From the NCBI GenBank assembly GCA_008508345.1, contig QNGE01000885.1, forward strand, positions 103,550-167,549: 64,000 nt of DNA, read 5' to 3'. The position numbers were made by a program, and so were the translations under genes. Below the pieces are notes generated by a model. It was not told the origin of the DNA. It worked only from the letters and a program-made list of their open reading frames with translations, and searched no databases. Positions 3,371 to 61,000 of the stretch are shown here, in pieces; position 1 is the stretch's first letter, and each line of letters starts with the position of its first letter. This DNA is from Paragonimus westermani (taxonomy: Eukaryota; Platyhelminthes; Trematoda; Plagiorchiida; Troglotrematidae).

Positions 3371-3788
3371 ATGTCTCGCTCTCAGTCGGTTACCGCCCAC
3401 TGGTTACCTTGTCGGATCGATGCTGACGGGCTAGAAGCAGATGTTCAGTCCAGATTTATTCAAAGGTTCGTTGATACGTTGCATCATTCTACTTTTTAGT
3501 CCCACCGATTCCATTAGCTTCACGGGTCATCCGATTCTGAAAGCAAACCTACGTGGTCGGCCTTTGTTGGGCACGAAACTCTCTCTACCAGCCCCCTATA
3601 CGGCTGTTGTTGTACATTCGGATGGTCATCAACTTGAAGACGATGAGCCGGCCCGTATTTCCGCAGGATCTAAAATCGAGGAGATAGTGTTGTGGAACTT
3701 GTCAGTTGAACCAAAGGCGTCTGACCGCATTCCTTCCGCACTTCTTTGGCTTCAATTGGCCAACCTGGTTCACTCGGATAATGGTTAA
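3371..3788 (+). CDS. RNASEH2C: Ribonuclease H2 subunit C
   Basis: Non-catalytic subunit of the nuclear RNase H2 complex, which removes ribonucleotides and RNA-DNA hybrids; it supports the catalytic A subunit together with subunit B. The gene reads as two exons, 3371-3465 and 3500-3788, splitting a codon 2+1 and giving 127 residues (human RNASEH2C has 164). Residues 12-20 are LPCRIDADG, like the family's N-terminal LPC...DGPA motif. Residues 49-56 LRGRPLLG followed by a proline-tyrosine loop match the FRGRPLxG core. IEEIVLWNLSVEP (91-103) and ALLWLQLANLVH (112-123) match the conserved C-terminal strand and helix. The ATG gives a start just before the first conserved motif. The intron has GT and TTTTTAG ends. 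What I see are the motifs; the family assignment is from memory of the family. The order and spacing of four motifs make chance unlikely. Confidence 0.8.
3466..3499 (+). other. 34-nt micro-intron of RNASEH2C
   Basis: It begins GTTCGT after CAAAG and ends in CTACTTTTTAG. Removing it joins two frames whose products match the N-terminal and C-terminal parts of RNase H2 subunit C in the correct order. Introns this small near the 5' end of genes are a known feature of schistosome genomes. Confidence 0.75.
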
Positions 3789-19200: not shown

Positions 19201-21540
19201 AGATAAAACTATAAATTATGAACAAAAGTCATTGGAATGCATCCATTTGTTGATGGTAGCGGTAACTTTCAAATCACAGTCAATGAACTCCAGTCTACAA
19301 TGTCATGCATATCAATTAGTAAAGTAAAGATAGCTTTTGGTTGGTATGAACTGAACATCACTCACAATTGTTTGTAGCTTTCGCATTTTCATGGACTAGA
19401 TTTCTGCTCAAAGGCGAAAATCGAGTCTGTTGCCCCTTTTAGAAATGGACTGATTAGAAAACTATGGAAATACGACAGCTGCAAATAGTCGAGGATGGTG
19501 TTCAGTGTATGCTAGTCAACATTCCCTACCAGTTAGCAACAGAAAATATCACTCAACAAGATCAATGGCCTTGTTGACTACAACTTGTAGAAAATTGCTA
19601 GTCGTGAGGTCATCGAATGGAGTAAACCGGGCAGCTGCCCTGTCTCCTATCGAGATAATCACACAATCCGAGTTTACTCACGGGTTAATGTGGCTGAGCC
19701 TTTATATATGATAATTTAATTGTGCCTAACATGCAGTCAATGGTGCCATGGTCAGTATGTTTCTACCATGAAAGCTTGGCCGGAGTTCCAGCCCGCATCA
19801 TACCCGGAATATACAACACTGATGGGCTCCAGCAAGAGCCAACCAAGAGTGTATTGCTTTATTATTGATAGAAGATGACTAAGAAAACGAATAGAAAAGC
19901 AACGGCTTTGTTCCATTGAGTGTGATCTTCAGCTTGTATTAACCAAAAGATCTGAACTACCCTGCAGTGGACGCAAAGCTTGAAAGAGACTCCGCTGCGT
20001 GTTCAGTTATGTCCGCACACTGTGGCCACATACGTGTGTCTGCACTTTGCGCGAGACTTATCAATGCACCTGTAGCTTTGTATCTGTCTACGTCTGGTTA
20101 GATTGGGCCATCTAACCTTCATAACTGACCTGTTGAGCCTTAGACTGTTCATCTTCGTGGGCTGGTTCTGCACGGTCTATAGTAGGATCGTAAAGCTGTT
20201 ACTGTGTCCACTGTTTCTCCAGTGATTTTGCTCTCCTAGCCAAGAAATGTTCATATTGGACCGTTCCTGGCTTCTACATTAACAGCACAACGGGACGTTG
20301 ATTATCCGCTATCGAGCAATCCGCCTGAGGTTCATGTACTATCTGTTTTCGGCAAAGCGAACATCTAATGTTTCCTATGGCTACAGGTATGGGTAGGGTG
20401 TTCAAAAAGGGTAACCTTTTACCTTCCTCTAGCTCGCACTTTAGTAACAACCTGGAGTGAAGGGCAATCCGTACGTGCCATACTTATCGATTTTGTGGGT
20501 CGATATATAACTTATAGTACTTCCGTTTGCTAGGATGGCCTCTACCGTTTGCTCGCTCTGACAAAACAATCATTCCCCATCTCGAATACCGTGCGTTTGT
20601 ATGAGGCCTTTCGTGAATACATTCTACACTTTATACGCAAAATTATGTTAGATGTTTTACAAATTGGGTTGTCACGAGAATACAGGCCACAGATATACGA
20701 ATGTGTAAGTACGTGTCTACTACTTCATATTAGGGCGTGTTGATGACTAAGTGCAGAATATCAAGGGATAAAATCTTGTAACTCCAAATATTTATTTGTT
20801 GTTTTGGTACGATATAGAACGTTGTACAAAAGGTTCAGTGCAGGATATCGACACACCATTAGGCAGGTTAATGATACTGTGGACCAGACATACAAGTTGC
20901 TGAACTTGTGTGCTTTTGGAAAGCCGTAGAATGTGGAAACTTCAATGTTGGTTGGTCCCAGTTTGTAATATTCCCTTTACTATTATTGTAGTTGTTTATC
21001 AGTTGTGTGTTGTCTGAAGGATCATCCAGCTTAGAAGTTAATAGATCGAAAAATACCACATTCGTTTTTGCAACACCATCGCTTCTGTCTACTGTGCACG
21101 CAAAAAACACCGTCAAGTTTTTTTGCGATCACAGTATTCTGTTTATTTTTATACATTAAGACTACAATTAATTCATCAATAAGTGTTGCATGTAGTAATT
21201 CTGTCTTCAAGTCTACTCCAGGGAGGTTGAGTATTCCACTATTCTCAGTTCTCATCTAGGTTGTTTCTTAGGTCACAACTGAGCTTCTTGTCTGATTTGT
21301 AGGTAGATCACTTTCCCACTGTTCCAGTGTCAAATATGGTGCCTCTTTAGGAAGTGTATTGCTGACCGAGATATCTCGACTCATTTTCAACTTCCTTAGT
21401 AACTTAACATTTCGGGCGAATTAACTCTGCAAACTATGTGTTCGCCATATTCAGGTTACATTGTGCCAAGTGTTATCAACAGGTGCTGCTCCACTTCTTA
21501 ATACATGACATCTTGTTCCTATTCAAACAAAATAACGACT
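16226..21540. other. No firmly supportable gene
   Basis: A possible minus-strand exon lies near 18380-18560: a TTTGGACAG acceptor is followed by about 58 open codons beginning NHHPLFDAFVNGSG and ending at a GGGTAACA donor. The composition looks coding, but I know no matching family and the phase does not fit the exon at 16225. The remainder is AT-rich with no recognisable repeat domain. Confidence 0.35.
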
Positions 21541-23921: not shown

Positions 23922-26504
23922 TTTGGAAGCCGGCTTGGTAAACTGTGCTTATAATAAAGAAAGTTGATCCTAGATGATCTGTACCGGGATTTCGGCTCTT
24001 ACTATACAACTAAGTTGTCTAGTCCAATTAACCACTTCATCGGCTTCATTACTAACGAAGTCCTTGTAAAGTCCAGCGAGTGAACAAGAGGATTAAAACT
24101 CTGATGAGCACACTGTCTGTAATTTTTATGAATCTCACTTTTATTTTTCTGCGGTTTATAAATACGGTTTGTTGGGACTTACAAGGGATAACCTATGAGG
24201 CCAGCAGTGAAAAAACTTCTTCAGTCGACAAAAATTTTATAACGCCACACTGTCGAGATATCCAACATTATGTGCTAACATGTGGTGCCTCTAGAAAGAA
24301 TAGTGGAGCTATTTTCCTTAAATCCGGTCAGTCCGACAATCGTGTGATGTAATTAGTTTTGGAAACCTAAAAACAGTTTTTGGTTTCGTAGTACAATCTA
24401 CCACCAAGTAAGCTCCAGTCAAACGGTAGACGGAGTTTTCGGAATATTTTTATGGATTTTGACCAACTTTTCTTAATAAAACTACAAGAACGTCTTGTTA
24501 AAAAAACGGGCTTGAATTGTGTAGTGTTTTATTGAAATCAAGTTTATCTGTTACACCCACTTTATTAATTAACGCCTAGTAATGACACAACCTATGGGAC
24601 TGTCTTCCATGTGTCTGATAGAACAGAAGGTTACACAAACACTAAACAAGTGTTTTAAGGATTCTCATGTGACCGTTGACTTTAATAGCTTGTGTGACAA
24701 TCAGTCATAATTTTAGTTAATCTACTCTAACGTAGTCATGTAGTTAAGCTCCCACATTTAGAATAATGTCACACCCGACTGAATCCCTTACCTCCGGAAA
24801 ACTTTTATCGACTCAGTTCGAACCGATGAGGATAACAGTGAGTAGAACATATTGATAGACAACGAGGTTTACTCCAGCCCTTTGTTATCTCAGTCGCCAA
24901 TACTGATTACCACCTCACTAATCTCACAATGAGGTGGATGAAACAATCACAAGTTATACATTCGTAAGGATACGCCAACCTGGATAGTGAGTAAGGTGGA
25001 AAAATTAAGAGTCTGTCCTGAAGGTTAGGATCACATTGACGACCGCGTACGCCGTCCATTTTATTTCTGTTTGGCTTGAGATACGATGCCATGCATAGGA
25101 ATCGATGCTTGAAACAATTTGAGTAGGTAAGACAATGGTGGTGACAAGAGGGTCAATTTGTTGAACACATGACCGACCTTAGTATGAAATGACCAAACTT
25201 GGTTGTACAATGTTCAACCAGAAATCCCAAGAAACGTCACCTCTTTTGTTCAGTTTATCTTTCCATACGTACTTGTGACCATCGCACCATCCAGTAGTGC
25301 ATTAGCGCGAGCCCTCGGTGTATTATTGTCCTTGCGATGACTCTTGGTCCTATTGAGGAGGATGATGATGGCGAGGCTGTCTGCAAGCCAGACGCTCAGC
25401 ATTCTGTCACTGACCAAATGTCAAATCGATTTGACGAACAGCGTGAACAGATCAACTCACTTGCCATCATCACTCATTGCGCCCAACGGTGTCATGCTTC
25501 AGCTTCCATATTTGAACCCGTATGACACGCTAAACAAAACGACCAGACGACAAATGGAAATACCTGACCTAAGGATAAAACGCACACTGTTCCTCTCTTA
25601 AGATTGTCGCCCGACTAGTATCGAAAATTTACTATACTCCGCAGTTTTCAAATGTGTCCAGATAATATTTGACTCACAACATTTGTGCCTACGATTCATC
25701 AAGTATAATAAATTAAAATAGCCTCATTTGGTCATATGTTTTCATCCCATCATGATAACCGAGGTGGACTTATACTCAGCAAACAGTCACTCACACATTT
25801 CTGTCACCACCGCCCAGAGATTTCTGGGATCCCGTGTGTGTATTTGTAGGAATTTCAAAAATATGATCAGTTATCGCAAAGAAGATGAGGAAAAGGAGGA
25901 CTATTTATAGTTGGAGTGCACGTGGAAATACAGAACCACTATGAACACAACTTCCACGTCGTTCAGTTACACGAAACAGTCTCCAGGGACCATACATAGT
26001 GATCAAATGTTGAACAACCCTTCCGTGACACAACTATCCAAACATAGTTTTGTAAGATAACGCTCTACACTTGTACATTTCGTGGTAGACATTGATTTGA
26101 AACAGGTTATGCAGTAAACAATAAGGTGAATTATCACATAAATCCCATTGACACTAGTCTCACACAAACAGTGCACGTCGTTGCCGGAGACCACAGTGTG
26201 CTTGTGCCTTACCACGAACACGATCAAAAACATACATACAGCTAAAACGAAGAGCTTAGTGCAACAGGAGTGCATATATTTATATGCCACTTTCACGGAT
26301 ATATCTCCACCCTCACTCTGGGCCCGATGGTCCAAATTACAACGGTTAAAACCTGACAGGTTAAGAGTGTCGTTGTGTTGTGCGCGCTTACTGGTAAATA
26401 GCTAGTGTTATTATAATCTGAATGGAAAGTGATTCACGGCTTTGTTTTTGGCCGCAGTCATCAGTCTGTTCTATTCTCACCGAAGTGTTTTCTGGTAAAC
26501 TCAC

Positions 26505-27093
26505 CTGGAATAGGGCAAATCACTTTTGTCGGATCCATTGCGCTCACAGTGAGTGTCTCATAGCCTCGAGACGGGTCAAGCAACAGTACTTGCTTGGGCT
26601 TTGTGCACAGTGCTCTGACTCCTGGTGCATATGCACCTTTCAACCCAATACTGAAAACGTAGTCTACTTGGGTTCTCAGCTTTCGCCCCAATTCTTCAAG
26701 CCTCGCAACGGCAGGCTCATTCAAATTGTTTGATGTCCTACCCGCAGAAGACGGTTGTATGAACGATTCATAAATCGTCCCAGTAGTCCTCGTCGTTGGC
26801 TGTATGTTCGTTCCGACGTGTATTGCACTCAATCCGCCCGAAGTGAGAAGGATAACGACGCGTGTTGTGTTTCCGTTGGCGGTTTCAGTCCTGGGAGGAA
26901 AAGCTCCGATCAGTATTGCTGCAATTGCTTGCTCCATATAGACCTGGGAACTAAATCCACCCAGGTGTGGCAGATTGCGAATAGCCATTAGTAGGTCAGG
27001 TAGATTACGTGTCGTTTCAGGTTTAATAGCGAGAAACAACCGGTCCGAATAGAGCACAACGGAGACAAGCACATGATCATCGCCAATCGGAAA
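26505..27093 (-). CDS. VWA-domain protein, exon with most of a VWA fold
   Basis: A 589-base exon with 196 whole codons. It ends at an excellent donor, CCAG|GTGAGT, and probably starts after AACATATAG. It holds FPIGDDHVLVSVVLYSD (second strand of the domain), LPDLLMAIRNLPHLGG then SSQVYMEQAI, RVVILLTSGGLS, and after an insertion LEELGRKLR with VDYVFSIGLKGAYAPGVRAL, ending VICPIPG. This is the order of a von Willebrand factor A domain, usually an extracellular adhesion module. The residues that normally bind metal are changed: GGxTxT reads GGFSSQ and LTDG reads LTSG. The insertion before the last helix, rich in Thr, Ser and Asn, is unusual. The N-terminal strand of the domain must be on an upstream exon. 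Confidence 0.75.
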
Positions 27094-35868: not shown

Positions 35869-36689
35869 CTGAGGTAGATGGAATCATATGGTATGAGAGG
35901 ACAGATAGACGGGTATCATCCGGTATGGAAGCTTTTACTAAAAACATTTGGTAGGTCTGGGGTGTGGTGTTCAACTCATATTCGTGCTCAAATTGCGAAC
36001 GTTCTTAAGTTATATACTTGACAAATACACTTTCAGAAAAGGGACAACTGCTTTATTTGTTCATAGTATCAAAGTATGGAGCAGTAAGTCATGAACAGCC
36101 GCAAACAGTGTTGGTTGATGCAAAAGTTTCTTATCAGTCACTTAACTACCTACCGCTGTTTCTGATTAACTGCATGGAACATTCCAGAGTAGTGGCTTAC
36201 TTTGTAGAGCTATACAGGAAAAATCAAAATTTTCTAATTGATCTGAAAACTTCGTACTAATTCCTTACACATCTTTTCATGTGGACTCACATTTAGCTAC
36301 CTGCCGCTGATCAACTTAGTGATACGTGTTAACAATTGTGGTGAGGGTAGGAAATGAGTCTACCGCACTGAGGTGTTTTTGACTGCATTTTACAATCCTC
36401 CAAGTTACATCAAGTAAAACGGAATTAAAATGATCAAACATTCAGTCAGTACAGTCATAAAAGTGGCAAGTAGAAATTTATTGACGATTATAAGTCAGTC
36501 GTGAGCAGACTGAGAAATCTACAAATAAGAGGTTAACATATATTCGTGTATATAAAATTGGAATTAACGTAACAGTTACTAGGTCACCTCATAAAGCGAC
36601 TGGGCAATCTGAGTACTTCTGTCAGGTGAATATTGTTGGGCAGTTCCATAGGATCATCCAGTCGTGCCTAATGGGAGGTAAGCCGTAGA
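35869..36689. other. No supportable gene
   Basis: An 80-codon plus-strand frame at 36018-36260 has no recognisable domain. The upstream exons of the VWA gene were not found here. Confidence 0.4.
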
Positions 36690-36845
36690 GTGATCAACTT
36701 TGTGAGTAAGTGGCCAGAGATATAGTCCCGGCCGTGACAAGGATGTGCACCACTGACGAGCTTGATTTTCATGTCGAAAGAAGTTGATTAAAAAGTCCCT
36801 GGGAATATGGAAGTTGCGATCAGTCTTAAGTGACATTCTATTCAA
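36690..36845 (+). repeat. tRNA-derived SINE with decayed hammerhead, copy 1
   Basis: Aligns with the SINE at 43097-43321 in opposite orientation. It keeps cccggccgtgacaaggatgtgcacc, the hammerhead core CTGACGA at 36753-36759 and the GAAA at 36776-36779. Helix II no longer pairs, the GTC cleavage triplet is gone, and the B box is degenerate, so both promoter and ribozyme are dead in this copy. The end reads ttgcgatca...agtgac, matching the SINE body. Confidence 0.7.
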
Positions 36846-38667: not shown

Positions 38668-39029
38668 NNNNNNNNNNNNNNNNNNNNNNNNNNNNNNNNN
38701 NNNNNNNNNNNNNNNNNNNNNNNNNNNNNNNNNNNNNNNNNNNNNNNNNNNNNNNNNNNNNNNNNNNNNNNNNNNNNNNNNNNNNNNNNNNNNNNNNNNN
38801 NNNNNNNNNNNNNNNNNNNNNNNNNNNNNNNNNNNNNNNNNNNNNNNNNNNNNNNNNNNNNNNNNNNNNNNNNNNNNNNNNNNNNNNNNNNNNNNNNNNN
38901 NNNNNNNNNNNNNNNNNNNNNNNNNNNNNNNNNNNNNNNNNNNNNNNNNNNNNNNNNNNNNNNNNNNNNNNNNNNNNNNNNNNNNNNNNNNNNNNNNNNN
39001 NNNNNNNNNNNNNNNNNNNNNNNNNNNNN
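38668..39029. other. Assembly gap (362 N)
   Basis: A run of undetermined bases. The sequence resumes inside a SINE, a few bases upstream of its hammerhead, so the missing part should contain the tRNA-like head of that SINE. Translated frames across the gap are meaningless. Confidence 0.99.
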
Positions 39030-39170
39030 GCAAGGATATGCACTACTGACGAGCTCTAATGAGAGCGAAACTCGAGTCTAGTGCTTCTTTTCGAAAGAGG
39101 CTGGCTGCAAAGTCTATCTGAATGCGAACGCTGCGATCAAATGTGAGTGACGGTCAACTTGAAAATAAAA
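39030..39170 (+). repeat. tRNA-derived SINE with intact hammerhead, copy 2 (5' end in gap)
   Basis: About 90% similar by eye to the reverse complement of 43111-43244. It runs from gcaaggatatgcac through the hammerhead, a ctttTCGaaag hairpin, the shared ctggctg, tctatctgaatgcgaacgc and gatcaaatgtgagtgacgg, to an A-rich end, cttgaaaataaaacc. The head with the A and B boxes falls in the gap. The A-rich end is the sort of 3' tail used for retroposition. Confidence 0.85.
39040..39084 (+). ncRNA. Hammerhead ribozyme (type I layout, short helix III)
   Basis: All parts of the self-cleaving hammerhead are present. Helix I pairs GCACTA (39040-39045) with TAGTGC (39079-39084), six of six. The core CTGACGA is at 39046-39052, with C at the freely variable position 7. 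Helix II pairs GCTC with GAGC around the loop TAATGA. GAA at 39067-39069 completes the core. Helix III pairs ACT with AGT around a two-base CG loop, ending in the cleavage triplet GTC at 39076-39078. Very short helix III is known from newt and other animal hammerheads, which work best as dimers. Family knowledge: such ribozymes in schistosome SINEs process the element RNA. Confidence 0.85.
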
Positions 39171-41959
39171 CCAAATCCCCGACGACTCATCAGTGATGAA
39201 CAGTTATATACTTTGTTTTAGCATAGTGTGTGATTTTCATGATTGTGTTTCCACAACTAAATTGGTGGTAGTAGAACGTAGTCTGTTATGGTGTGTAGTC
39301 TGCCAGCTACCATATCTCACGGTGATGTTTCCTCATAGATTATCTGGCCATGGAGAGAGCGACCTCGTCCGATTTCAATCAGTTTACGGTTGAATTCCCC
39401 GTAAGTACAACATTTTCAGTAAGAGAATGATTAATCACTAGTGATTCTACGGTTCATGTGCATGTTTTTAGAAAAATTTCATACTGACAGTTAATCCTAA
39501 GTTAACGGAGAGATGTCTGCCCTCAAGCCACCTGCGTTGTTCCAGTGAGTTTGCGTGCTGTTATTCTTACGTTCTGGCATGAAGAGTTGTTCCTCTAGTT
39601 CAGAACATGACAGAACCACTAAATAGTGGTAACTGACCTTTTTGCTTACGTCCATACTTTTCACTCAGTCATTGGAAATAAGCGCAGCGAACACCCAAAG
39701 CTAGCTCTGGTCTTCAATCCAGCTATTCGGTCAAACGGCTATTCTTGTAGAGATTGTCAGGTAAAATAGACGGGGTGGAAGTAGTCTGACGGTCGGCTTC
39801 CTAGGTTGGGATATTCATTCGAGCTTATTTACAACCGTGCCGCTCAAGGTGGGGGAGATTTCTATATGTGGTCCTATCACAAAGATGTCACCGTCTCTGT
39901 GGGATAATGGAAGGGAATAGAGATGAAAAGATGCTTGGTGAAGTTGTTACAGTTTTTTATTTCGGTACGTTCCACAGTACAGTATTTTAGCGTGACACAT
40001 GTTTCAGCTAGTGAATGTGCCAACACAGAATCAATGTACTCTAATCGCAGGCTAACATCAATTGCCTAGAAGTTGCGGAGGAAACCAACAACGACGAGCT
40101 TGCGAACGTGACTGATGGCGCCAAAGTGACGAAAAATTACCCGGTTCATTCCACTACACTGACTAGCAATCAGTAAGTTCGAAGGTTTGCATTAATTATC
40201 TTTGGATAATCGTGTTGGCACTAGGATCGATCCAGAATGTTACAGAAAACTAACAGCAATATCGGCATTCCACCTGAATAAACTATGTCTATAAGACTCC
40301 TGTGACTGCTAAAAGTTGACTCGTGTAGTATCCCAAAAACCTGTTACAAAAATTTCGAAAGAAAACGTAATTTTTGTTATTTCGATGTTTTGCCACATAA
40401 AACTTATTTCCCACAATTAGACGCACTTAGTACATAAAAAGGAAATAACTATCCCTAACGTGTAGTTAGACAACAAAACAAGAGTGATAGGGATGCTTAT
40501 AAACTAATTCAACAGTGGATATCACTTAACCATTTAATCCGAATCATTACAAAACTAATCAGACATGGTAAAGATGCTATCACGCCAAATAATACTTACC
40601 TTCATGCTGTTTCGAAAATTGGCTGTTAACTCCCTGTAAGAAAAGAACATTAAAATTTAGAAACGTCCATGTAACAAGTGCGAGTAACAATCGTGGCACG
40701 AGGGAATCCATAACAAATCTGCATTCATACGCTAAAGTACACTAGAGCTGAGCAAAAATGTAATTGATTTTTTTAGCCATTTCAGTACTGATTGATCAAC
40801 ACGCATAGCAAACAGATTAGGGGTGAACACATGTCATAGAGACGAAGATCGAAGCCCACATTTAGTTTCGAAAGATTTATGACTTTGTCTAAAATTGACT
40901 ACATTGATGATTGCGTGAATGGTTGCTGTGCCTTGTTGGTGTAACGCTATCAAGGTCACCAGATATTTATGTCTTTTATCTGTTCGAGGTTGAAACCATT
41001 GTACCCCGAGCGCTGTTAGTTGTCGCATGCATGTTCACTTCTGAACAGTAGGAGTATCAGGATTCATGCAGTGAGCACGAGAGACAATAGTTAGATTCAC
41101 ACAAGTTACTTACAGACATCTCTACAGTTAGAAAAAGTGAAATTTCTCCTTTTCATATGCGACTTTTTAAAGTTTGCCTGTGATCGTCGCCTTCAATTAC
41201 TCAGTTATACGGAAGACCAGATCATCTTCAAAAATGCGACTGATCATGCTGGCATGGAATTCTCGAAGGAACTGAAATCCCAACTGTCAGCTTCCAATTC
41301 AACAATTGAATATTACGGATTAGCGGCGACGATTTTGTGCGGTAGGTGGTGATCGTGGACGCACTTACAAGCACTACTTTTGACAGCCAGTTATTTTCAA
41401 GGACACGACTGCCATATTATCGACTGAAAATAACGCTTGCCATCTACTTACGTTTTTGGGATAGGGTGAATGATTGGACGAGGAAAACTATGGGTGTACA
41501 AGAACGTGGGAATCATCTCAGTACACAGGAAACGGAATCGTATAACGTTCTTCCCAAAAGCTGTCCTCCAAATAGTATCCTGGATTTCAGCAGGACCGCG
41601 TGTAATTCCGAATTGGATGAAAATAAGAAAGGCATTTAATTCCAACCTACTGTTAGACCAGTGTGTAAATGAAACGGACAGGCAAAAATATAGATAATCT
41701 CCTATCATACACCCTTAAAAAGCCGAAATGAATTCTAGGAAGGAAGTCTCCTCCATTTCGAACAAGACTCTCCTGACTCTACAAGCAGACAGATGAATAA
41801 AATTCTGCATACAGAAATTTATATACCACTTTACGCAAAGCATTCCACGCATGAATGGAATGGCAACTATTTAGAATCGACACCCCCCCTTGCAAAATGT
41901 GTGTAAACAATACTGACAGTCAGCAGAACTTTAAAAAATTATTCTTTTCAGGCGTCTTA
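39171..41959. other. No supportable gene
   Basis: No named domain. An open frame near 41160-41340 (+), with an acceptor-like TTTTTAAAG and donor-like GCG|GTAGGT, could be an exon but matches nothing I know. Confidence 0.4.
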
Positions 41960-42380: not shown

Positions 42381-43096
42381 TATTCCTCCGGATGTTAGAA
42401 TACTCATTACCCCTCTTCAATCAAAGATAACTGATAGATGTTGGCATTTTCGACGTCTGCACTTTCTAACAACTAGGTCAGCAAGCTAGTCTAGTGATTT
42501 CTTTCCTCGGTCTGGAATTGCTTGTATGTTGTGTCTCCGAGACCATGCATTTACGATCGTATCATTGTCCTTCTTTTGAATTCGTCTCCTAACAGTGTTG
42601 TGGATCAGCTGTCTTTTCTCAGGGACTTTAATGAAGAGGAAGCCGAAACTTGTGGTCAAACTGGATTTGCGGTTGCACTGAGATCTAAGGCTCCCGGTGA
42701 ATGGTCGCTTGTATACCATCACACGTCGAATTGTGACCAAAGTCTACCGGTACAAACCAAGAAGACGTTGCTTATGTGTCCAATATATAAATTTCATATG
42801 GGACAATATTCCAGATGCAGTCAAGAACGCCTTCTCTGATGCCTCATTGGTTTTGAAGGACGAATTAAGCACCCAGACAGTTGTGTGCTGGTGATCTGGA
42901 TTTACAAGTCGGTTGTCTTACTCCAGAGAAGTGGCTAAGTGGTATGTTCACCGTTCGTGCTCGACGCACTGTAAGTGACAGTCAGCTGTTATAATTATGA
43001 CTAGCTCACGGACTTCACACATGACGTAGTGCATTTCAGCGCAAACGACCACAATGCGTCACGTGAACTCCGAACAAATGTGGACCACCTCACATT
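42381..43096. other. Unassigned, possibly decayed coding sequence
   Basis: Plus-strand frames at 42522-42839 and 42697-42894 are open together and have mixed, protein-like composition (RDFNEEEAET, NGRLYT, then IWDNIPDAV in the other frame). They could be a frameshifted transposase, but I cannot name a family. Confidence 0.25.
43087..43096. repeat. Target-site duplication, left copy (10 bp)
   Basis: acctcacatt is repeated exactly at 43312-43321, on the two sides of the SINE. Ten bases fits retroposition by a LINE enzyme. The right copy overlaps the start of the tRNA-like head slightly, so the exact boundary is uncertain. Confidence 0.6.
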
Positions 43097-43321
43097 GACA
43101 GATGTGTTACTTTCAAGTTGACCGTCACTCACATTTGATCGCAGCGTTCGCATTCAGATAGACTTTCCAGCCAGCCTCTTTCGAAAAGAAGCACCAGACT
43201 CGAGTTTCGCTCTCATTAGAGCTCGTCAGTTGTGCATATCCTTGCCACGGCCGGGATTTGAACTCCGGCCATTCCAATCATGAGGCACCCGTGTTACCCA
43301 CTGCGCCATTGACCTCACATT
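43097..43321 (-). repeat. tRNA-derived SINE with hammerhead, fullest copy (copy 3)
   Basis: Read on the minus strand it starts with a tRNA-like head. The A box TGGCGCAGTGG is at 43298-43308 and the B box GTTCAAATC at 43255-43263. Both fit the RNA polymerase III consensus, and they are about 34 bases apart as in tRNAs. The B box sits in a T-arm-like hairpin (CCGG...CCGG). The hammerhead follows directly, then a body shared with the copies at 39.0 and 36.7 kb and a short tail. Exact 10-bp direct repeats flank it. The consensus promoter and clear ends suggest that this copy is younger than its neighbours. Confidence 0.85.
43191..43235 (-). ncRNA. Hammerhead ribozyme, one helix I mismatch
   Basis: On the minus strand: GCACAA, core CTGACGA, helix II GCTC/GAGC with loop TAATGA, GAA, helix III ACT/AGT, cleavage triplet GTC, then TGGTGC. 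Helix I has one A-G mismatch at its second pair; the copy at 36.7 kb has GCACCA here, which would pair fully with TGGTGC. All conserved core bases are intact. Confidence 0.8.
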
Positions 43322-45659
43322 AGGCACTACCGAATTATCATGTTATTATGTTACTCGCAAGCGTTCACTTCAGTGTCTTGTTCCAGTAGATGTTCCCACC
43401 AAGGTGGTTGAAAATTCTCACTATTATCATAAAACAACGTTTAAACAACCGGAACTGTCTTCTATAGATTCTCATCTCAGGACGGCGGAATTAAATCAAC
43501 TTTAGTGACCAGTGGGAAGTTATCATTTTAAGACAATCGTGGATGGAGTAAGTGAGTGAAAGACAATGACGACTCCGTTGTGACTGGAACCACAAATAAG
43601 GTTAACTTTGGAGAGCCTGTGTTAATCTGGTCGGGGATCAGACTATTAGGTCCGGTGACCGGATTGTGAAGACTCGAACGGTGCATCATGCCTAAAGCCG
43701 AAACGGCAGCCATTTGATTACGTCACCGGAGTTTGATCTGTCACATTCTGAGACTGCTGTGACCGCCTGATATACCCCCAACACGAATGGCAATTTATTG
43801 CTGTCACTCCTGTCAAACTCAGTTAATCCCATTTATTTAAAATTGACCTCGTCAGTGGTTTCAACTTAGACGAAGTAGTGTTCGTGGTTTGTCTAACTAT
43901 CAAGCCTTCTGTTTTTATGTTAGTTAATAACTTCCTGGTTGTTACTTATTGCTTACCTAATTGTACCAGTCAAGGTCGTGAAATTATATAAAAAAACGGT
44001 ACTGTTCGCTGGGGCTGTGTTCCCATGAGTTCCTGGATAAATTCCGTTTATTTCATATAACTGTAACCTACACTAAGCGAATAACTTCAAATGTGTCTAC
44101 CATTACATTCGACAAGAATATGGGAGGGAAATTCGCAATTATTCTACGTCTTCCACTCCAAACTCAAGTGAACCCCATATTACATTACTTGTTAAATACT
44201 GTATTCGCTATCGCTTCATCGAATGTGAAGCATTTACCCGTAGGTTTCAAAGCCGTCTTTCCAGTAATTTCAGTGTATACTCACGAAATACTAACGTCTC
44301 AATGACAATACAGATAGCTGAGAGACATATGTGGCGCGCACACTGAAGGACTGTTCACACAGGCGCTCATAAAGCCTGACTCACTGAATTGAAAGTACCG
44401 ATTCTCAGCTAAAATGATTAGTGTCAACGCTTACTATCTGTGTTTCTGATGGATGGAGTTAGAGAATCAACGCTAATCATGCAGGAAGTATACTACACAA
44501 ATGCACGAAATTGTTATCTCACATTAATTTCCTCAATGTTAGCCAGAACAATGAGTGGTTAGTAGAAAAAATCAAAGGTTGGTTGTTCCGGTTATTGAAC
44601 AGAAGAAGTGAACTGAATTACCTAGACTTATCAGATCCTAGCTTTCGAGAATCCCTCATGGAGTTTAAACGGTGACATCCGGAAGAAAATTACGCTTATC
44701 GTTGATTCAGGTGACGAATAATTTTATCAAGACAGCCTCTGTGAAAATAATGAATAGAAAACACCACTCGCAGAACTTTCTCCGTGAAAACCCTCGAGAG
44801 TAACGTTGGTTCCATTATTAACGGGAACCGTCAGACTTCAAAAGTCGAATTATCCAAAAAAATTGACGTCCGGTTGACGATCGTTTCAGGGGGCGATGAA
44901 ATGCTCTGGCTTTCATCCACTTAAACTTTCTAACCGAGTTGCCTTACGAAGAACTGGTTGGTGGAAAAATGTAGCGTGCAGTTCGTAGTATTGTAGTGTA
45001 CTTGTCCAGAGGAGGAACGAGAGTTCACTAAGAATCAGTTGTCAAGTACATACAACACAATTACAGGAGTAAGGAAGAATTGAAAAATAGTGAAGGGGTA
45101 TTACGATGCGCCTCATTCAGCTAGCTTATCGTCTATTCGGTCCTCTTCTTCTGGGACTGTGCTGACTGCCAACTGACTCGCGTTATTTCGCTTAACATCA
45201 CCGCGTTCTAATTAATGCAACATCCCGGATCTTAACCAACTTTTGGTAGAACCTCGAATTCTGACTCTACCTATGTAACATCATCCGCATCTCCACCTTT
45301 GTGGCTGCTGACATTATCCACAAACTGACTAGTCGGGGACACAGGGTATTTTATCAAGCAGGTGGAGTCACACGACCCTTTTTATTTTCTATGTGATTTC
45401 GTGAAAGCACTTTCAGGCACCGCTTCCTGATGTACTCAAATTTCACTTTCGGATTCCAAAGCGGTCCAAAACACTCTTTTATCATGGTACACATTTTTCT
45501 AGAACCAACTTAGCCATTGGTCGCTAAATAGTTTCACATTTTCTCTTGCAGCGCTTTCTCTCGACCTCCATACTTGTGAAATTACTACCTCCGTCACACC
45601 GTCTCTCGTACATGAGAGACGTTCCGAGTCACACGCCTGGGCTATCTGTTACCGTCTAA
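43322..45659. other. No supportable gene; possible Gypsy integrase remains
   Basis: The Gypsy pol fragment ends near 45.66 kb on the minus strand, and an integrase would follow at lower coordinates. I could not find the zinc-binding or DDE motifs there. The frames at 43528-43713 (-) and 44093-44305 (+) are unassigned. Confidence 0.35.
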
Positions 45660-47015
45660 AATCCGCGTACTGTAGATTGATTGATGCTTAGTGTAGCACG
45701 TTGCAACTTGAGCAGTCTTTGTGACCACATAACGTATCAGCATAGGTGTTTCCTGCCGGTTTGATGTTCGCACTCGAAGTGATAACCTCGTAGAATTTCT
45801 TGCACTGTCCACTTTGGCTTTCTAACTACCTGAACTTCTAAAGCCAATGGAGAAACTGATGATCGGTACGAACTGTAAACCGCCAACTCAAAAAGTAATG
45901 TCGGTACTGTTTTACGAGGAGAACCAGAACTTTTATGGTTGCAGAATAATTTCGTTCTCGTTTTCTAAATAACCGATTCCCGCAAGTAATCACTCGCTCA
46001 TTTCCATCGGCATCTTTTTGTGACGATACAGTCGCAAGGGTACAGTCGTCGACGGCAATCTCCAGGATGTATCCACCGTTTTAGGGCGATGAACCTGACA
46101 ACTCTAAAGTGGGTGCGGAACACGAAGAATGCCGTAATGTCTTGAATATTGCTTCGTACCCATTGGGCTGTTCAACCTTCCGATTCTCCTCCATGGCTTG
46201 CGACGGGCTAGCGATACGTCCAAACCCCGTCATATATCTCCCGTAGTATGAGGCGGAGGTCCAGGAAATTATGCATCTTCTCCGGGTTTTGTGGAGTAAA
46301 CCAGGACACAACTTGCTCAACTGTCTTTGGATTAGAAACCACATGCCCCAGATGTCATTTACTTCCTCCTCAGTTAACACCTAACAAGGTTAATTATCAG
46401 ATCCACCTGTGCTAACCTATCAAAGACGCTAGGCAGATTCTTTAGAGGCTGCTTGTTCGTCTTCCCGTGCAGGATGACGACATCCAAGTAGATGAGGCAT
46501 CGAGGCCGAATGTGATCACTCGGCACATCAAATGCTGAAAATTGGCGAGGAGATTTGACAACCCAGTAGTATCACGAACGCTGTTTTAGCTCTATGACCC
46601 CTAATTTTTTACTTACCAATAGCTGGAGGCTGAATCCAACGTGCTAAAACAGACAGAACTCTCCAGAGCTTAAAAGAGATACTCGATGTGAGATAGTAGG
46701 AACGCGTCTTTAACGGTGACTTTGTTCAACACTCTATAGTCAACACATTTACTTTCTTTCAGCAGCCTATGGGAGCTTGAGGATTTGATCACATTTTTCG
46801 AAAGCATTTGTTCGATCATTTTAGCCGCCTGTCATCGTCAGACTAAGAATGTCTTCCAGCGCGGTATTTTTCCGCAAGGGAGGAGGGTTCCACGTGTCTA
46901 TTTTGTGTTTCAGCACGTTCGTTTGCCCAAGCTCATTTTTATCCCAGACAGACGCACTACTGTAATCAAGAATTATTTGCCTCAATTCAGCTTTGTTTTG
47001 GTGCCGTTGTAGCAC
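45660..47015 (-). mobile_element. Ty3/Gypsy LTR retrotransposon pol fragment (decayed)
   Basis: Reading down from 47015 on the minus strand, domains come in the normal pol order. They are a linker (TNVLKHKID), a reverse transcriptase start (MIEQMLSKNVIKSSSS), CVDYRVLNKVTVKDA, FSTLDSASSYW, CLIYLDVVIL (YxDD lost), ASYYGRYMTGFGRIASP, and RNase H (SQKDADGNERV, RERNYSAT, RFTVRTDH). Last is the TYADTLCG segment, where elements usually have NADALSR. Several stops and frame changes disrupt it, and no LTRs were seen. It cannot make an enzyme. It lies just downstream of the MED1-like last exon on the same strand. Confidence 0.85.
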
Positions 47016-47043: not shown

Positions 47044-47085
47044 CCTGCGATCAAATGTGAGTGATGGTCAACCTGAAAATAACAT
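47044..47085 (+). repeat. SINE 3' tail fragment (copy 4)
   Basis: The segment reads tgcgatcaaatgtgagtgatgg then tcaacctgaaaataac, which matches the last 40 bases of the SINE copies at 39.1 and 43.1 kb. The head and hammerhead are absent, so this is a 5'-truncated insertion, as expected when reverse transcription stops early. Confidence 0.75.
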
Positions 47086-50215: not shown

Positions 50216-50286
50216 CGAGCAAGCTGTAGTACTCTACGTTTCAACCACCTCGAGTGGTTGAAACGTAGAGTACTACAGCTTGCTCG
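50216..50286. repeat. Perfect inverted repeat, 33-bp arms, 5-base loop
   Basis: The left arm starts cgagcaagctgtagtactct and ends caaccac; the right arm is its exact reverse complement, with ctcga between. A transcript from either strand would form a near-perfect 33-bp hairpin. Sequence just to the right (ctcgtaacgtt...cccaatctgtttatcaa) recurs at 33.9 kb. Perfect arms in an otherwise decayed region imply recent origin or conversion between arms. Confidence 0.95.
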
Positions 50287-53863: not shown

Positions 53864-55384
53864 CTGCGAAAACAGGAACGAGTGCAATCACAGAACAACG
53901 AGTACACACAGTGTCATAAAATGCGGCTAAACAAAACGCATCACGTTCGGCTCATAACACAGATAATCATGGGACCGAATGTAAATCAATAACTTTTTCA
54001 TATACCCCGTCATAGCCGAATAAACTCACTGTTAACGACAACCGTTAAAGAGTTAAGCAGCTCTGGTCATCTTGAATGTCCTTCTACAGAAGTCGGAAAT
54101 GCCAAAATAAATGAGATTAAAAACCGCATTCACAACTTCAAATTGGTAACAGCAATGTGTGAATGTGCTTCATATCGAAGCAAGCTGGAACGAATGATGT
54201 AGCGTGTGAATCCGTCGGCAACAATGGGCCTAGTGGTTACACTAGAACCGAGTAAAACACACCAACGGTGAAAATTCGAAGTAGAGAGCAGACTTTCACT
54301 CCTGTTCCATATTTCGGAGCATAGTCTAACATTTAATATTCAATCTATTATCCCCCGAGACGTTGCAGCTGTGAACAACTAAAACCCGTTTAACGATTGG
54401 TAATGAGATGGTTAAGCCATCACAACACGACATGTTGACGTGGCACCTTAAAAACACATCCGCTTGTGACTGGAATTCAAAGATGACTATACTGTTTCCA
54501 CGAAGATACCAGGTAGGTTTGCTGTTGAGCTAATGTATAAAGCAGCCGAGTCGTGAGACCACCACGACCTCTGATTCAATCTGAAAAGATCCAACAGTTT
54601 TAGTCGGTACTTCATGCCTTAAACATGAATCATCATGTCCAGGTGGAATTTCGTACCCAGCAATTGCGTCGTCGACCATATAGCATTTCCACGAATCAGG
54701 AAACAGCAATTTAACAAACTGCTCCCTTTTGCTTTCCAAACAAGACACGCACTGTGCTCGGCTGAAACCTTAGCGATATGGGGCTCGGTAACAGATGGTA
54801 GCCAATTTAGTACCGTTGAGGTAATAATAACACTCCAAAGAAATGCATCTCGTTCCCCTTTACCAATTAGCCACCTACCTTTCTAATAGTTTTTACGTAA
54901 CAAATGTAATGACCTTTCAATTCGGTTAGGTTTCGTAGTCACCTATTCATCCAACGCGCTAATCTATGAGTCCCAACTAGATATGGTATGGTAAGCTGAT
55001 TTTATTGGCTGATGGCTGATAGATTTCACAGTTTTTGACCGGCGTCATCCATTGCCCGTAGCTTTCACTTCCACGTAATAAAACTGGAGAGGACAGTCAA
55101 AAACTACCCTCGCACGACACGCTTGACACGTATGAAAAACAGTTTACTGTAAAATAAATGGGGAACAAACAGTTCGGCGAGAGTTTGATCGAATGTGGAC
55201 TGCGCTGTGGGGCAACTCAACAGAGTATAAACGAACAAGTTGACTTCTACCTTTCCAAAAAACAACGAGCTCTACCGTCGTTGTTGAGACAACCTGTAAA
55301 CAACGGGTTGTCATCAAATGTGCGTAGAGAACACAACATTCAGTAACAACTGAAAACTGCACACAGCGCAACCATAAGACTTAC
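53864..55384. other. Intron of the MED1-like gene (1.5 kb)
   Basis: Bounded by GG|GTAAGT and TTCGCAG|A on the minus strand, both phase 2. I found no repeat or other gene in it. The small frames at 54530-54886 on both strands are unassigned. Confidence 0.6.
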
Positions 55385-58049
55385 CCGGTATAAAACTTTT
55401 CGAAAATGTTATCTCCACGAGGATCCTGCACAGAATCACGATCTCCAGGAGCTGCGATGAAGGAGACATCCTGGAAGTTGGCCTTATCATCGACTTCTGA
55501 ACGAATCTGAGAATCCTGAAAGGCCTGCAAATTATTCGCAGAGGAAGACTGAGTTGCAGAGGGTTGGCTAGCGGTTGAACTGGAGGATTTTGCGCGCAAC
55601 TTATCCACAATATCAATGATGCTTTTCATCGACTGTCTTCGAGGCAGTTGTTGCAGCTGTGACGCACCAGACTGTGATGCGACCACGGGGGCAGTGGTGA
55701 CGACGGATGATTGTGGCGGATTTAATTCTGATTTGGTGTAATTCGGTCCATGTGGAAACTGAGTACTGCATACAGTTGAGGTGGTAGAATGGGTGGAGAA
55801 CGAAGTGGATAGTGAAGGACTGACAGGAGCGAAGTCAGACAGTGAATAGGGATCAGGGACACTCAGATCGGCGGTCTTGCTAACGGCAGACTTGCTCGGA
55901 CTGACTGTTTCAGACGATACAGTGTACACGGAAGCTTGTCTTTCTTCAGTCAGACTAGCTTTCAAAACTGCTGAATTAGTACCTGAAGCCTTCTTCTTTG
56001 GTATCTTGTAGCCCTTAATCAATCCGCCTGAAGTACTGTTTGTGGCAGTCAGTGTAGACGTGACAGATGATGTAAATGGAGTACTCATATGGGACTTTTT
56101 TGTTGGCCCTACAATCCCTTGGGATCCCGAACGGACCAATGAATGTAGGGATGATCGGGATACCTTCAAGTTCGAGGTTGTAGCTTGAGAATTGTCTGCA
56201 ACCACGAACTGGACATTGTTTACATCCTCCAACTCGTACTGCGTATTGCTGCCAAAATTATTCGCTAATGGGATCGACGAGGCGGACTGTTTAGACGATT
56301 CAGAATGCTTTTTACGCCTCACTTCCGCAGTTTGCGCAGAAGAACAAACCAAGGAGCCGTATGATCGTTTGTTAACGTTGTCCTCAACTGTACCTGTAGA
56401 TGACGGGGTGAGGAAATGTTTTTTCTTTATTGAGCCAGACGGAACTTGATGACTTTTCCCGGGGGTAACGGGAGAGGTTGCATGAATAGAGAAAGGAATT
56501 TTTTCATGCACTGCGCTGTCGCCCGAATCTTCACGTGACAAACGTTCAAATTTACTCGGTTTGCTTGATTCAGTGTCATGACCAATGTGGCCACTTGAAA
56601 CCGTTGCGAACATCTGACTAGAGGCGGAAGCATGAGCCGCTTTTTCGGATGCATGAGTGGCCCGTCGTTTGCGTTCTTTTTTAACAATAAGAGAAGCATG
56701 ACTCAAAGTTGTCACAGACTTGGCTGATTTGATCGATCCAGGTGTAGGTTGCAAAACACCGCCAACGGTGTGTGTTGGGGCTGTGGCGTGTTGTAGCATC
56801 TGTAGCATATAAGATGACGGTTTGCCCTCGATTGAGCGCCGTTTACGTTTCTTTATCGATTGCCCAGTAGGTGCCCCTTTTATCTTACCTTCAGTCATTG
56901 TAACGAGTCTGGAGCCGGGTGACTTCAACGGATCCTGTTTTCCCACACTTAATTTGGAGGTAGGTGTGGTAGTCTGAGGGGGTAAAGTTTTGATGGTCAT
57001 TTTCAGACTTGATTTTCGATCCACAGTACATTCGGCAATCGTAGGAGTTGTAACCACTCCAGAACCCGAGACCTGAAGGATAGCGGATCCAGTGCCCGAC
57101 GATCCCAGCAGTGACGATCCAGATGCTGAATAGCTAGCACCAGAAGAGGAAAGTTTCGAGGTAGGCGTACCACTAGGGCCGGAAAAAGAAGAAATCGAAC
57201 TAGTGCTAGTCATTTCGAACAATGAGCTCGGCGTGTCATCGAAATCGTAGACAGATTTCCCACTACCAGCTACAGCGGCGGGGCCACCGGAAGAACCTGG
57301 TGTCGGAGATGTTAAGGCTGGGTTGGCCAACAGACAACCATAACCAGGCGCGGTAATGAATGAATTGCGATGATGGGCGATCTCGCCGACATGCAACCGT
57401 TGATGCTTTGATACATGCACACTAGACTGGGGTGTGGAGCTGACTAGTGAAGTGGGCTTCGTTTGTGGACCAATTCCGAAAGTGTCTGAGATGCCACGGC
57501 GTCGTTTTCGGGGCTTCTTCGAAGTCGTTGTCACCGTGGTCACTGTCGGGCCAGCTGATGGACCGGAGACAAGACCGGTCGACTTCGTTTTTGACATCCC
57601 AGTCCCAGTGCCATGAGCAATGGCTACAGGCATGGAACGGGCAGACTGCGTGCTGGCAGCCTGTTTTGATAAAGGCGGCGGAGTAGACACCGGCGGGTTA
57701 GAAGTAGATAAACTGGAAGCACTCCCAGAAGACATTCGCCCGAGCCCTAGCGATGACGGTGAGACTCCAACACCGATTGCAGGTGGTGAGATTATTGAGG
57801 TGACGGTAGGAATTCGATTTGGTGTGCCCACGTTTGAGGTGCCAAAGTTATCGCGAGGAGCATCAAACGTGCTCCCTATCATTAAGGGTTCCGAATGGCT
57901 TGATGAAAGATTCAGGCGTTGTGTATGGGGTAGCTGTGGCAGCAGCGAGCTAGTTGGCGGAGGCAAAGGATCTTCGTTCAACAGATTGATCAGCATAGAC
58001 CCACTACCAGACGAGCAGGATTTGCCGTTATTTTGGCCGGAAGGACCAC
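55385..58049 (-). CDS. MED1: Mediator complex subunit 1-like, large exon (gene partial)
   Basis: MED1 is the Mediator subunit that bridges nuclear receptors and other activators to RNA polymerase II in the nucleus. This 2,665-base exon encodes about 888 residues. It starts after GCTGTCCACTTAATAG (phase 1) and ends at the perfect donor CCGG|GTAAGT (phase 2). Near its start is SMLINLLNEDPLP, an LxxLL motif resembling the vertebrate receptor box MLMNLLKDNP. At 55600-55640 is SMKSIIDIVDKLRAKSSSS, resembling SLTAVIDKLKHG near the vertebrate C-terminus. Between lie hundreds of Ser, Thr, Gly and Pro residues with basic clusters (KKPRKRRR, KKRKRRS, KKERKRR) that could be nuclear import signals. The folded N-terminal domain of MED1 is not in this exon. 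Two motifs in the right order, with the right composition, support the call, but another long disordered nuclear protein remains possible. Confidence 0.65.
57979..57993 (-). other. LxxLL nuclear-receptor box codons
   Basis: Codons for L-I-N-L-L, within SMLINLLNEDP, 20 residues after the acceptor of the large exon. In MED1 this motif class docks into the groove of ligand-bound nuclear receptors. Here it is the clearest link to the MED1 family. Confidence 0.7.
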
Positions 58050-61000
58050 CTATTAAGTGGACAGCAAACGAAAACGATACAAAGGATGAGCCTAAAACAA
58101 GTGAATTCATGTCATAAGCGCAGGTAAACCGGTTGTTACACGACCCTCAAGAGGTCAATTGGGGGCTGCTGAAGTAAACGCATAACTGACGGGCAATATG
58201 ACTAAATTTGAATTATCCTGAAGTGTATCCAACAATAGTAAAAATGGAAAGGTCTGTTTAGAAGCGGCAGACATATTTGAGGGATGACATTACATCACGT
58301 GAGCACGAGTCAGGTAAAAACGTGACAGCTAACAAACCGAAAAAAGCAACAACTGAATTGAGTAGTGAGATCACGGAACACTGTATATCGGAGCTGTAGA
58401 CGAGGTATGTGTCATCATGTGGAACTGCTAGACCAACAATACTAATCTAGCCAGTTTCCTGGTGCATGTCGTTTCAGCTGGCTCAAAAGTGACCACCACG
58501 GTACCTCGAAATTAAGATCCTGCTTACACCACTACTAGTCTTTGAAACTAAACTAATACCTTCCCAATCATCCCCTCATAAATCGCTGGTTACATTCATT
58601 TGATCGGTTATGCAACTTGAGTGGATCATCGTACTTAGCTGGAACGTGAGGCCTGTTCTATTAAGAGTTTTATATCCGAATCGATACTGCCTCCAACGAA
58701 GCAAATGCAGTTCAAGTGAACATACAATTTATCACATAACAAGCACAAGATTACTCCCGAACGGCATGAAATCTGACGAAAACAAAGGGAATCTGAGTGT
58801 GGAACGGATTGCGGATTTTAAGCGACTCATTTCATATGGTAGAAGTAGCATGTCTTCCAAACGGATGAGGTGCTCCAACCATACCGATAAATAATAGTTG
58901 AGAATTTGTGCAAATTCGCAACTACATGCCAACTGGCAACACAATAATTTTTCTGGAAGTGACCATTTAAATGCTAGGGCTAGCGTGTTATGAAGGTGAG
59001 AAAGATCACATTAAGAAAAGAGCAACAGAATGGTTGTTCTAACACGCTCCAGAAGTCTATCACCGAGAGAGATTGCGTCTGAGGCTACTGGAAAACAGAA
59101 GTGATCAACTTGGCCACCCAGTGTACAAAGACACAATCTCAGAATGTGCTTCATAGCTTCAAAGTAGATTTGCAACACTTGCGATTACGAAGATTTAATG
59201 GTGGAGGATGAAGTTACGGAGACAATGGACTAGTGTGTGTACGGAGTAACGGCGGCGGTATAAAAGATTAAACAGACGCTGGTATATTCAAAACGAAGAC
59301 GGTTGTCGCTAACTAAAGTCAGCTTCGACGACGGAGAGGCATCTTGCCGATGCACAAAAGAACGTAGATCAGGCAACCAACAGTGACAACAATAAGACAG
59401 AACGGATGTGAAACGTAGTCTCTCAGGGTAGGGAACCCATACCGCCTTCAAACAGTCGACTGTCGGTGGCTGCGGTGCCGACGTCACAGCCGGTTCCTGT
59501 AAGTTGTGAAATGAACAAATGATAAATTGGAGAAGAAAACTAAGGGCATAGTTCTGTAACTTGTGAATCCCCAGTTAGTGTGAATGTGGGTTCCTTACAA
59601 ACGGTCAGTTTGTGTATCGACAACGAAGTGCGGGATGTGAACAAGCTACACAAAAGTATGTTAGTCGCCTTCGTCACAGGTGCTGTTCACAGAGCCGGTG
59701 CACTAGTAAGTAACAGATTTGACCTGTAACATGAAGGTTCGATGGTTCGTGAACAACTAAATCTAGCCCTATCTGACAGGCTCAAACAGAAATCGAACGG
59801 GCTATTCGAGAGAGAGAGAACATCAGAAAATACTAAAAGAAACGAAGACAACACCGACACATCCAGTGTAGAGCATGTGAGCCCTAATGCTGTTAAAGAT
59901 AAAACATGAGTTATTAAGATGTCGGGCATCATGAAAAGGCATGCTATCCACCTTGACATTGGTCGTATAAAATTAGCATACGGATCCGTGCAACATCGTA
60001 CCCGGTAGGATTTTTTCTCAAACATCGACGGTAAGGGGAAGAATTAAAGAGTTGCTTTTTTATGTTCGTTACTCATAGTAAGGCTGATAATTTTTATCAC
60101 ACACTTCGTACCATGTGTTGGAAAGTGAAAGTATGTCAATGCCACCAAAACATATGAGGCGACTTTCAAAAACAACGACGCTGTAATTCACTGAAGAACA
60201 GTTGCACCCTTTCCAGAGTAACTGGCAATCTAGAGAGGTGGTTAACTGTTCAACTTGTTAACTTGTGTTAACGTTTATTGCATGGGATCTGCAAAACAAT
60301 CAGCGTAGAGAATGTTGACAAGATTATTCCTCAGACGACAAAGAAAACGATGCTGAACAATTTTGAGTTATTAGGTTTTGACATTTCCTATTTTGAAATT
60401 CAGAGGAAATTCAAAAGCGATTGCAGCCAAGTTTCTATCTAACAGTTGCAAAATGCCAAATGTTCAACCTGCAATATTTAAATGGATGTGGTGAGGCAAG
60501 TAAGAATTACGAAAAAAATCGGCCGGAAAAGTCCTTGGCTTCGAAACGTTAAATGGTGTATTAAGATAAAGTTTCGCAATAATTCCGACATAAATTTATC
60601 TCTGACTATCTCAGTGAATTCGTTACTGCTCACGGTATTTCTGATCACGCACCATCTAACAGGTCATCAAGGGTAAATCACCACGACCTGGGAGTAACTG
60701 CTCTGGTTTTCCACCATCAGTTCAGGACCCCCGTCGGAAAAGTGATACTTAGGGTCTCACAGCTAATGGGTCGATCTCTAACAAACGCAGCTGATCGTCT
60801 CATCCACAAGGTCAGCCGTCTGCTGAAGTCAAACCAAAAGACCATTAGTCTCCAAAGTGAAGTTGTCTTTCTTCACCTTGGATGTCATCATAGGTTGAGT
60901 CGTGCACTTTTTGTTTCAATTTACAAGCCTGTTATCAAGATGGGGAAAGCGATACCATCGTATATTTCATAGAGGCTGCGTCACAGCTGGTCCTAGAGTG

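Follow-up and report, generated by a model that had tools for sequence, protein, structure and literature searches.

Within the window, by which we mean the whole 64-kb stretch of DNA that was analysed, there is a single gathering-level Rfam match, a Hammerhead_1 ribozyme (RF00163) at 39040-39084 of the plus strand that scores 34.7 bits against a gathering cut-off of 34 (E 6.2e-5). A sequence-only reading had claimed a complete hammerhead at this place, and the claim holds. Helix I can be formed with six pairs and helix II with four, the blocks CTGACGA, GAA and GTC are in place, and the features of a type I hammerhead (CUGANGA, GAA and NUH, three helices, helix I open) are found together. A second, inverted copy with A and B boxes upstream had also been described, and it is indeed there on the minus strand at 43191-43235, with 43 of its 45 bases the same as in the first hammerhead and 2 of 45 different; across 142 nt, the two surrounding copies, here called a and b, are 96% identical. 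The traces of the element in the window are given below, where unit positions refer to the 431-nt repeat discussed in the next paragraphs, and the first and second 3' sites are the two places at which most of its copies end.

39030..39197, plus strand: copy a of the element, unit 257-423, ending at the second 3' site
39040..39084, plus strand: type I hammerhead of copy a, RF00163 34.7 bits, predicted cleavage between 39078 and 39079
39088..39091, plus strand: TTTT directly 3' of the hammerhead, a possible Pol III stop
43107..43340, minus strand: copy b of the element, unit 162-395, 5'-truncated, ending at the first 3' site
43191..43235, minus strand: hammerhead of copy b, RF02275 31.7 bits (below the cut-off of 52), predicted cleavage between 43197 and 43196
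43298..43308, minus strand: A-box-like motif TGGCGCAGTGG of copy b, a motif match only
43254..43264, minus strand: B-box-like motif AGTTCAAATCC of copy b, a motif match only
36557..36762, plus strand: old, incomplete copy matching unit 69-282 at 68.5% identity, with the 3' half of the hammerhead gone
19598..19752, plus strand: old, incomplete copy matching unit 51-205 at 68% identity, confined to the upstream part
47045..47082, plus strand: 3' end fragment only, unit 358-395, ending at the first 3' site

The 5' part of copy a is hidden because 38668-39029 is filled with N; in copy b, TGGCGCAGTGG and AGTTCAAATCC lie upstream of the hammerhead and 44 nt apart. Helix I is not the same in every copy, with one A.G mismatch in copy b where copy a has U-A, and a C, in the fragment at 36738-36762, at the first of the helix I places that are U-A in copy a. 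What, then, does helix III look like? It had been drawn as three pairs closed by a two-base loop, a form that the energy model refuses; a workable helix III would consist of two pairs and a UCGA tetraloop, or else two molecules would pair through the 8-base palindrome ACTCGAGT.

The element had further been called a tRNA-derived SINE, and this description survives in part. Pol III-like A and B boxes are present; these boxes are what speaks for a tRNA origin, and no tRNA model was matched at E 1 in the window, at E 5 in 43060-43400 or at E 0.5 in eight loci (Rfam), nor did ARAGORN find a tRNA in the window or in 15 loci. A plain SINE of 235 nt, as our first query (window 43104-43341) would have had it, is rejected, for the query proved to be only part of a unit of 431 nt with a GC content of 0.473 (47.3%), in which the A box lies at 194, the B box at 238, the hammerhead at 267 and the predicted cleavage site at 305/306. 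Locus L012 is an example: the sequence of 909-1303 comes again, shifted by 431, at 1340-1734.

To describe how the copies lie in the genome, we used 66 insertions that are at least 85% identical to the unit and whose flanks can be read; hits below 85%, the duplicate loci L009, L062, L067, L068 and L076, and, out of 73 insertions, the 7 that lie beside N or reach the edge of a locus were left out, and the loci are the best-scoring or first-listed of the genome searches rather than a random sample. A direct stretch of more than 431 nt occurs in 12 of the 66, the longest being 938 nt. By our own count, 12 of 20 stretches that span a unit junction are identical over 23 nt (AATCTAAAATA joined to TCGCCTTGCAGG), 7 carry substitutions or small indels, and 1 (L020) is unlike the others. 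What had been called a SINE is part of this repeated unit, which carries Pol III-like boxes. The TTTT that follows the ribozyme could stop Pol III ahead of the full unit, which counts against a model in which the full unit is transcribed.

The family is large. In a genome of 823,446,929 bases (823 Mb) in 9,701 contigs, exact matches on both strands to the core pattern CTGAYGAG...CGAAAC...GTC number 6,492 (3205 + 3287), a few sites being doubly counted (3 second readings among the places listed), as against 45 (22 + 23) for the same pattern reversed, a difference that rules out chance matching. A covariance-model search of the genome, which the sequence-only reading had proposed together with a count of intact cores, bears the ribozyme out as well: with 74 of 136,546 candidates scored, there were at least 42 Rfam matches, 35 of the 42 listed being over the cut-off and the best reaching 47.5 bits. 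At least two other hammerhead families occur in the genome besides that of the 431-nt unit, and the best Rfam scores belong to the second of them to be numbered here, family 2 (L001-L006, L008 and others), whose copies share 67-78% identity over longer stretches (a range read from the longer alignment rows) and have box-like motifs immediately upstream; sequence comparison found no similarity between family 2 and the 431-nt unit. A third form (L051 and L082) shows 81% identity over 107 nt. It has a GGTTYRATCC-like motif immediately upstream (L051:1582, L082:1501) and a very short helix III, and it reads as another box-plus-hammerhead element, of low copy number among the places listed. Scans of viral and prokaryote contigs gave no hammerhead match.

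Is the ribozyme being maintained? The refuting condition named in the sequence-only reading, core bases as free to vary as the rest of the SINE, gives a mixed outcome. Among 54 close copies that cover the ribozyme, the core is intact (position 7 omitted) in 44, and in 32 all 13 pairs are kept too. With position 7 again omitted, core columns vary by 0.0176 compared with 0.0295 for matched random sets, a difference that is not significant because 17% of random column sets are equally low; with position 7 included, the core value is 0.027, as against 0.026 in the head, 0.030 in the 5' part and 0.033 in the 3' part. Of the core columns, position 7 varies most, with T in 8 of 55 rows, a count that takes in copy b twice (as L009 and as the window). 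In young copies, in other words, the core shows no clear excess of conservation over the rest of the element, and this counts against the explanation favoured below. The helices, on the other side of this comparison, do covary between families. Over 50 distinct hammerheads of two families, a sample picked in part by a model that favours paired bases, pairing is seen in 91.8% of cells, and covariation scores 0.375 compared with 0.173 for shuffled alignments (0 of 500 as high) and at most 0.146 for slid structures; two of five covariation measures are not above the shuffles (both-side-changed pairs, 7 vs 7.6; pair types, 19 vs 18.7). One member, L054 1407-1451, is grouped with the family of the 431-nt unit (family 1) by a letter rule though its helix III is of the family 2 type. 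Energy calculations by themselves do not favour the hammerhead: the 73-nt region (z -0.46) reaches its energy minimum in another fold, and z is -1.64 for the 45-nt core.

What is newer about this element is how its copies end, namely at two sites past the cut, with inverted pieces at their starts. Of the 66 insertions, 39 have their 3' end at unit 388-402, 22 have it at 411-431 and 5 end elsewhere; the two sites, about 90 and about 117 nt past the predicted cleavage point, are 27 nt apart, and 20 of the 27 nt between them are A or C. Both are represented in the window, where copy b ends at unit 395 and copy a at 423. None of the 66 has its 3' end at unit 302-309, around the cleavage site, and none of 52 simple insertions has its 5' end at unit 302-310, the 5' ends of those 52 being scattered from unit 2 to 429. 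Retroposition of a linear, hammerhead-cut monomer is rejected because of this lack of ends at the cut, which means that the templates had an intact or a rejoined site.

An inverted piece stands at the start of 14 of the 66 insertions, and its outer end lies at unit 390-437 in 10 of the 14, the others being at 351, 333, 175 and 216; the opposite arrangement does not occur among the composite insertions. When neighbouring hammerheads less than 1 kb apart are taken, independently, from 97 places on the core-pattern list, 9 pairs are divergent, 1 is convergent and 2 are on the same strand, spaced 431 and 432. Family 1 is not alone in this arrangement, head-to-head inverted copies being seen in family 2 too (L008:1356-1545 and L004:1068-1698). 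Flanking direct repeats of at least 8 bp accompany 14 of the 66 insertions, compared with 0.6% of cross-paired controls, and repeats of at least 10 bp accompany 10, compared with 0.04%; the remaining 52 have no flanking repeat of 8 bp or more. Over-length insertions are among those with repeats (L012, 12 bp; L043, 11 bp; L039, 9 bp), and in L012 and L042 the repeats start with GTAA of the element's own end.

To what known elements can this one be compared? The likeness to the schistosome Sm-alpha elements that had been noted, a hammerhead within a repeated element with Pol III-like boxes, is upheld as one of general kind. Sm-alpha and Sj-alpha are described, in the parts of the literature used here, as SINE-like, tRNA-related, hammerhead-bearing elements with very many copies and tandem forms (PMC2770079, PMC4918200, PMC8490949), and our element shares with these accounts the type I hammerhead, a short helix III, a small size with a tRNA-like part and a very high copy number. 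On those partial accounts, Sm-alpha is its nearest named relative; the likeness is one of description, and as a point of difference the hammerhead has 12 of 31 bases outside the 14 core positions in common with the RF00163 consensus. Two traits, C as the base at core position 7 and a helix III of minimal length, had been put forward as marks of a new lineage, and these diagnostic differences fail because the RF00163 consensus carries the same C and a short palindromic helix III. Nor does a short helix III imply cleavage as a dimer, as had been suggested: in the part of the account consulted, invertebrate retrozymes usually have a short helix III with a tetraloop and cleave as monomers (PMC7229834).

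Over the extended region the best-scoring model is Hammerhead_HH9 (RF02275), which at a permissive threshold gives 35.2 bits at 39028-39101 and 31.7 bits at 43247-43174 (minus strand). The internal loop in helix I is a likeness to HH9; unlike HH9, an intronic ribozyme conserved in amniotes, the element scores below the gathering cut-off of 52.

The animal non-LTR retrozymes are a further comparison. As characterized in the portion of that paper drawn on here, they have a type I hammerhead, short tandem units (150-450 bp), a GC content below 50% and target repeats longer than 4 bp (PMC7229834); the 431-nt unit, its GC of 0.473 and the 12 of 66 insertions longer than one unit all fall within this description, and target repeats of more than 4 bp and multi-unit insertions are shared (Cervera and de la Peña 2020). 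Unlike the retrozymes of that description, the element carries A and B boxes, its copies are mostly dispersed and single, and its ends and inversions are Penelope-like. Our best explanation, which taken as a whole we consider probable, is that this retroelement is non-autonomous, has a Pol III-like internal promoter and belongs with the animal non-LTR retrozymes, a known kind of element.

With the ribozyme, the unit, the over-length copies, the end sites, the inverted pieces and the target repeats as observed features, how might such copies arise? Genomic copies holding two ribozymes would be transcribed, perhaps by Pol III; within each unit the hammerhead would cleave the bond joining C305 to U306; and the unit would be circularised by a ligase of the host. 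With broken target DNA as its primer, a reverse transcriptase would start at one of the two places about 90 or about 117 nt past the cleavage point, read round the unit, sometimes more than once, and stop anywhere, leaving copies that are truncated at the 5' end, over-length, or inverted head to head. The enzyme of Penelope-like elements would come closest to this behaviour. In the Penelope-like element PAc of Anolis, reverse transcription begins from two adjacent internal sites, 111-118 nt into the ORF, and the hammerhead cuts at 26, which places the starts 85-92 nt past the cut; there is an optional tail of 30-40 bp between the sites, and both target strands are cleaved and extended (PMC11167929). 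Our element resembles PAc in its two adjacent internal starts past the hammerhead, in the extension of both strands, in an AC-rich start region and in partial tandems, and its spacings of 90 and 117 nt stand beside the 85-92 nt plus 30-40 bp tail of PAc; unlike PAc, it is without a reverse transcriptase or endonuclease, and its hammerhead has a helix III. The pattern of a Penelope-like mover, two internal start sites with both strands extended, is found in the 39 and 22 of 66 3' ends and the 14 of 66 inverted starts. We take these end sites and inverted pieces as the best pointer to a Penelope-like enzyme as the mover, which may be what mobilises the element. Against it stands family 2, whose copies end about 145-167 or about 38 nt past their cut, so that the 90-nt spacing does not hold throughout.

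PAc also provides an argument for a different template. Hammerhead mutants left its insertion in vitro unchanged, and the main substrate was unprocessed RNA, so circles need not be the template (PMC11167929). The same kind of element might accordingly have as its template a multi-unit RNA, linear and uncut, that is transcribed from tandem copies, with a hammerhead that acts elsewhere or hardly at all; the lack of ends at the cleavage site (0 of 66 3' ends, 0 of 52 5' ends) fits this too. We regard it as unlikely: a circle accounts no less well for a junction that hardly varies (12 of 20 identical), and published animal retrozymes, in the part of the account used here, occur as circular RNAs (PMC7229834).

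Less likely still is that the element is a SINE moved by an ordinary LINE, with the inverted 5' pieces due to twin priming and the hammerhead a passenger. Truncation at the 5' end, flanking repeats of 8-15 bp and 5' inversions are also seen with LINEs, and the core that is not clearly more conserved in young copies would suit a passenger; however, the inverted piece of twin priming starts inside the RNA, whereas here 10 of 14 start at the RNA 3' end zones, and over-length copies with one junction and covarying helices argue against this origin as well. That the tandem copies are satellite-like products of DNA recombination rather than of RNA we consider very improbable: same-strand neighbours spaced 431 and 432 would fit, as would the first observation of schistosome and newt elements as satellite DNA, on the part of the source consulted (PMC6155905), but dispersed over-length insertions have repeats of their own (L012, L043 and L039) and share their 3' ends.

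Returning to the retrozyme-like element and its candidate Penelope-type enzyme, we offer a wider proposal tentatively, giving it somewhat less than an even chance: the hammerhead and the approximately 115 nt after it may form a Penelope-type start module taken up by several unrelated Pol III-promoter elements in this genome. If this is true, such elements would be to Penelope-like elements what SINEs are to LINEs, and the enzyme that moves animal retrozymes would have a name; a 2020 review, in the part used here, holds that it is not deducible from sequence, no conserved motif pointing to a retrozyme partner enzyme (PMC7761336), and Penelope-like elements are a strong candidate mover in the part of the account of Cervera and de la Peña drawn on here (PMC7229834). 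A Pfam GIY-YIG search, with 150 of 281 candidates scored and a model that may miss diverged Penelope endonucleases, gave one match, read as the host gene SLX1 and not as a Penelope element, a point against such a mover; inspection recognised no Penelope protein in the ORFs beside the third-form hammerheads (L051, L082). Animal retrozymes and the hammerhead elements of schistosomes have long been known; a young, abundant family with sharp ends and double-ended insertions makes the question of the mover testable by sequence comparison and reporter assay.

On these matters the genes of the window have no bearing; what counts is the family across the whole genome. At 3435-3788 (plus strand) there is an RNase_H2_suC match of 26.8 bits against a cut-off of 20.8, likely an exon, and at 26461-27093 (minus strand) a weak von Willebrand A match of 22.1 bits, a little short of the cut-off of 23.8. 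The stretch at 46600-47000 (minus strand) resembles, by eye, a decayed Gypsy-type reverse transcriptase. A near-perfect 69-base hairpin at 50217-50285 scores 45.5 bits against the mir-2041 cut-off of 70 and is probably a palindromic repeat rather than a mir-2041 microRNA. An open frame of 921 aa at 55381-58146 (minus strand), with no Pfam match, has two relatives at 33% and 29% identity; it is reminiscent of Mediator subunit 1. Elsewhere in the assembly, a COX1 of digenean appearance lies on contig C9701 (511 aa, open under the echinoderm and flatworm mitochondrial code), and another COX1-like frame, very unlike the first and containing 7 in-frame TGA codons, lies at L090 (G000:C7067), which we would read as a contaminant or foreign mitochondrion.
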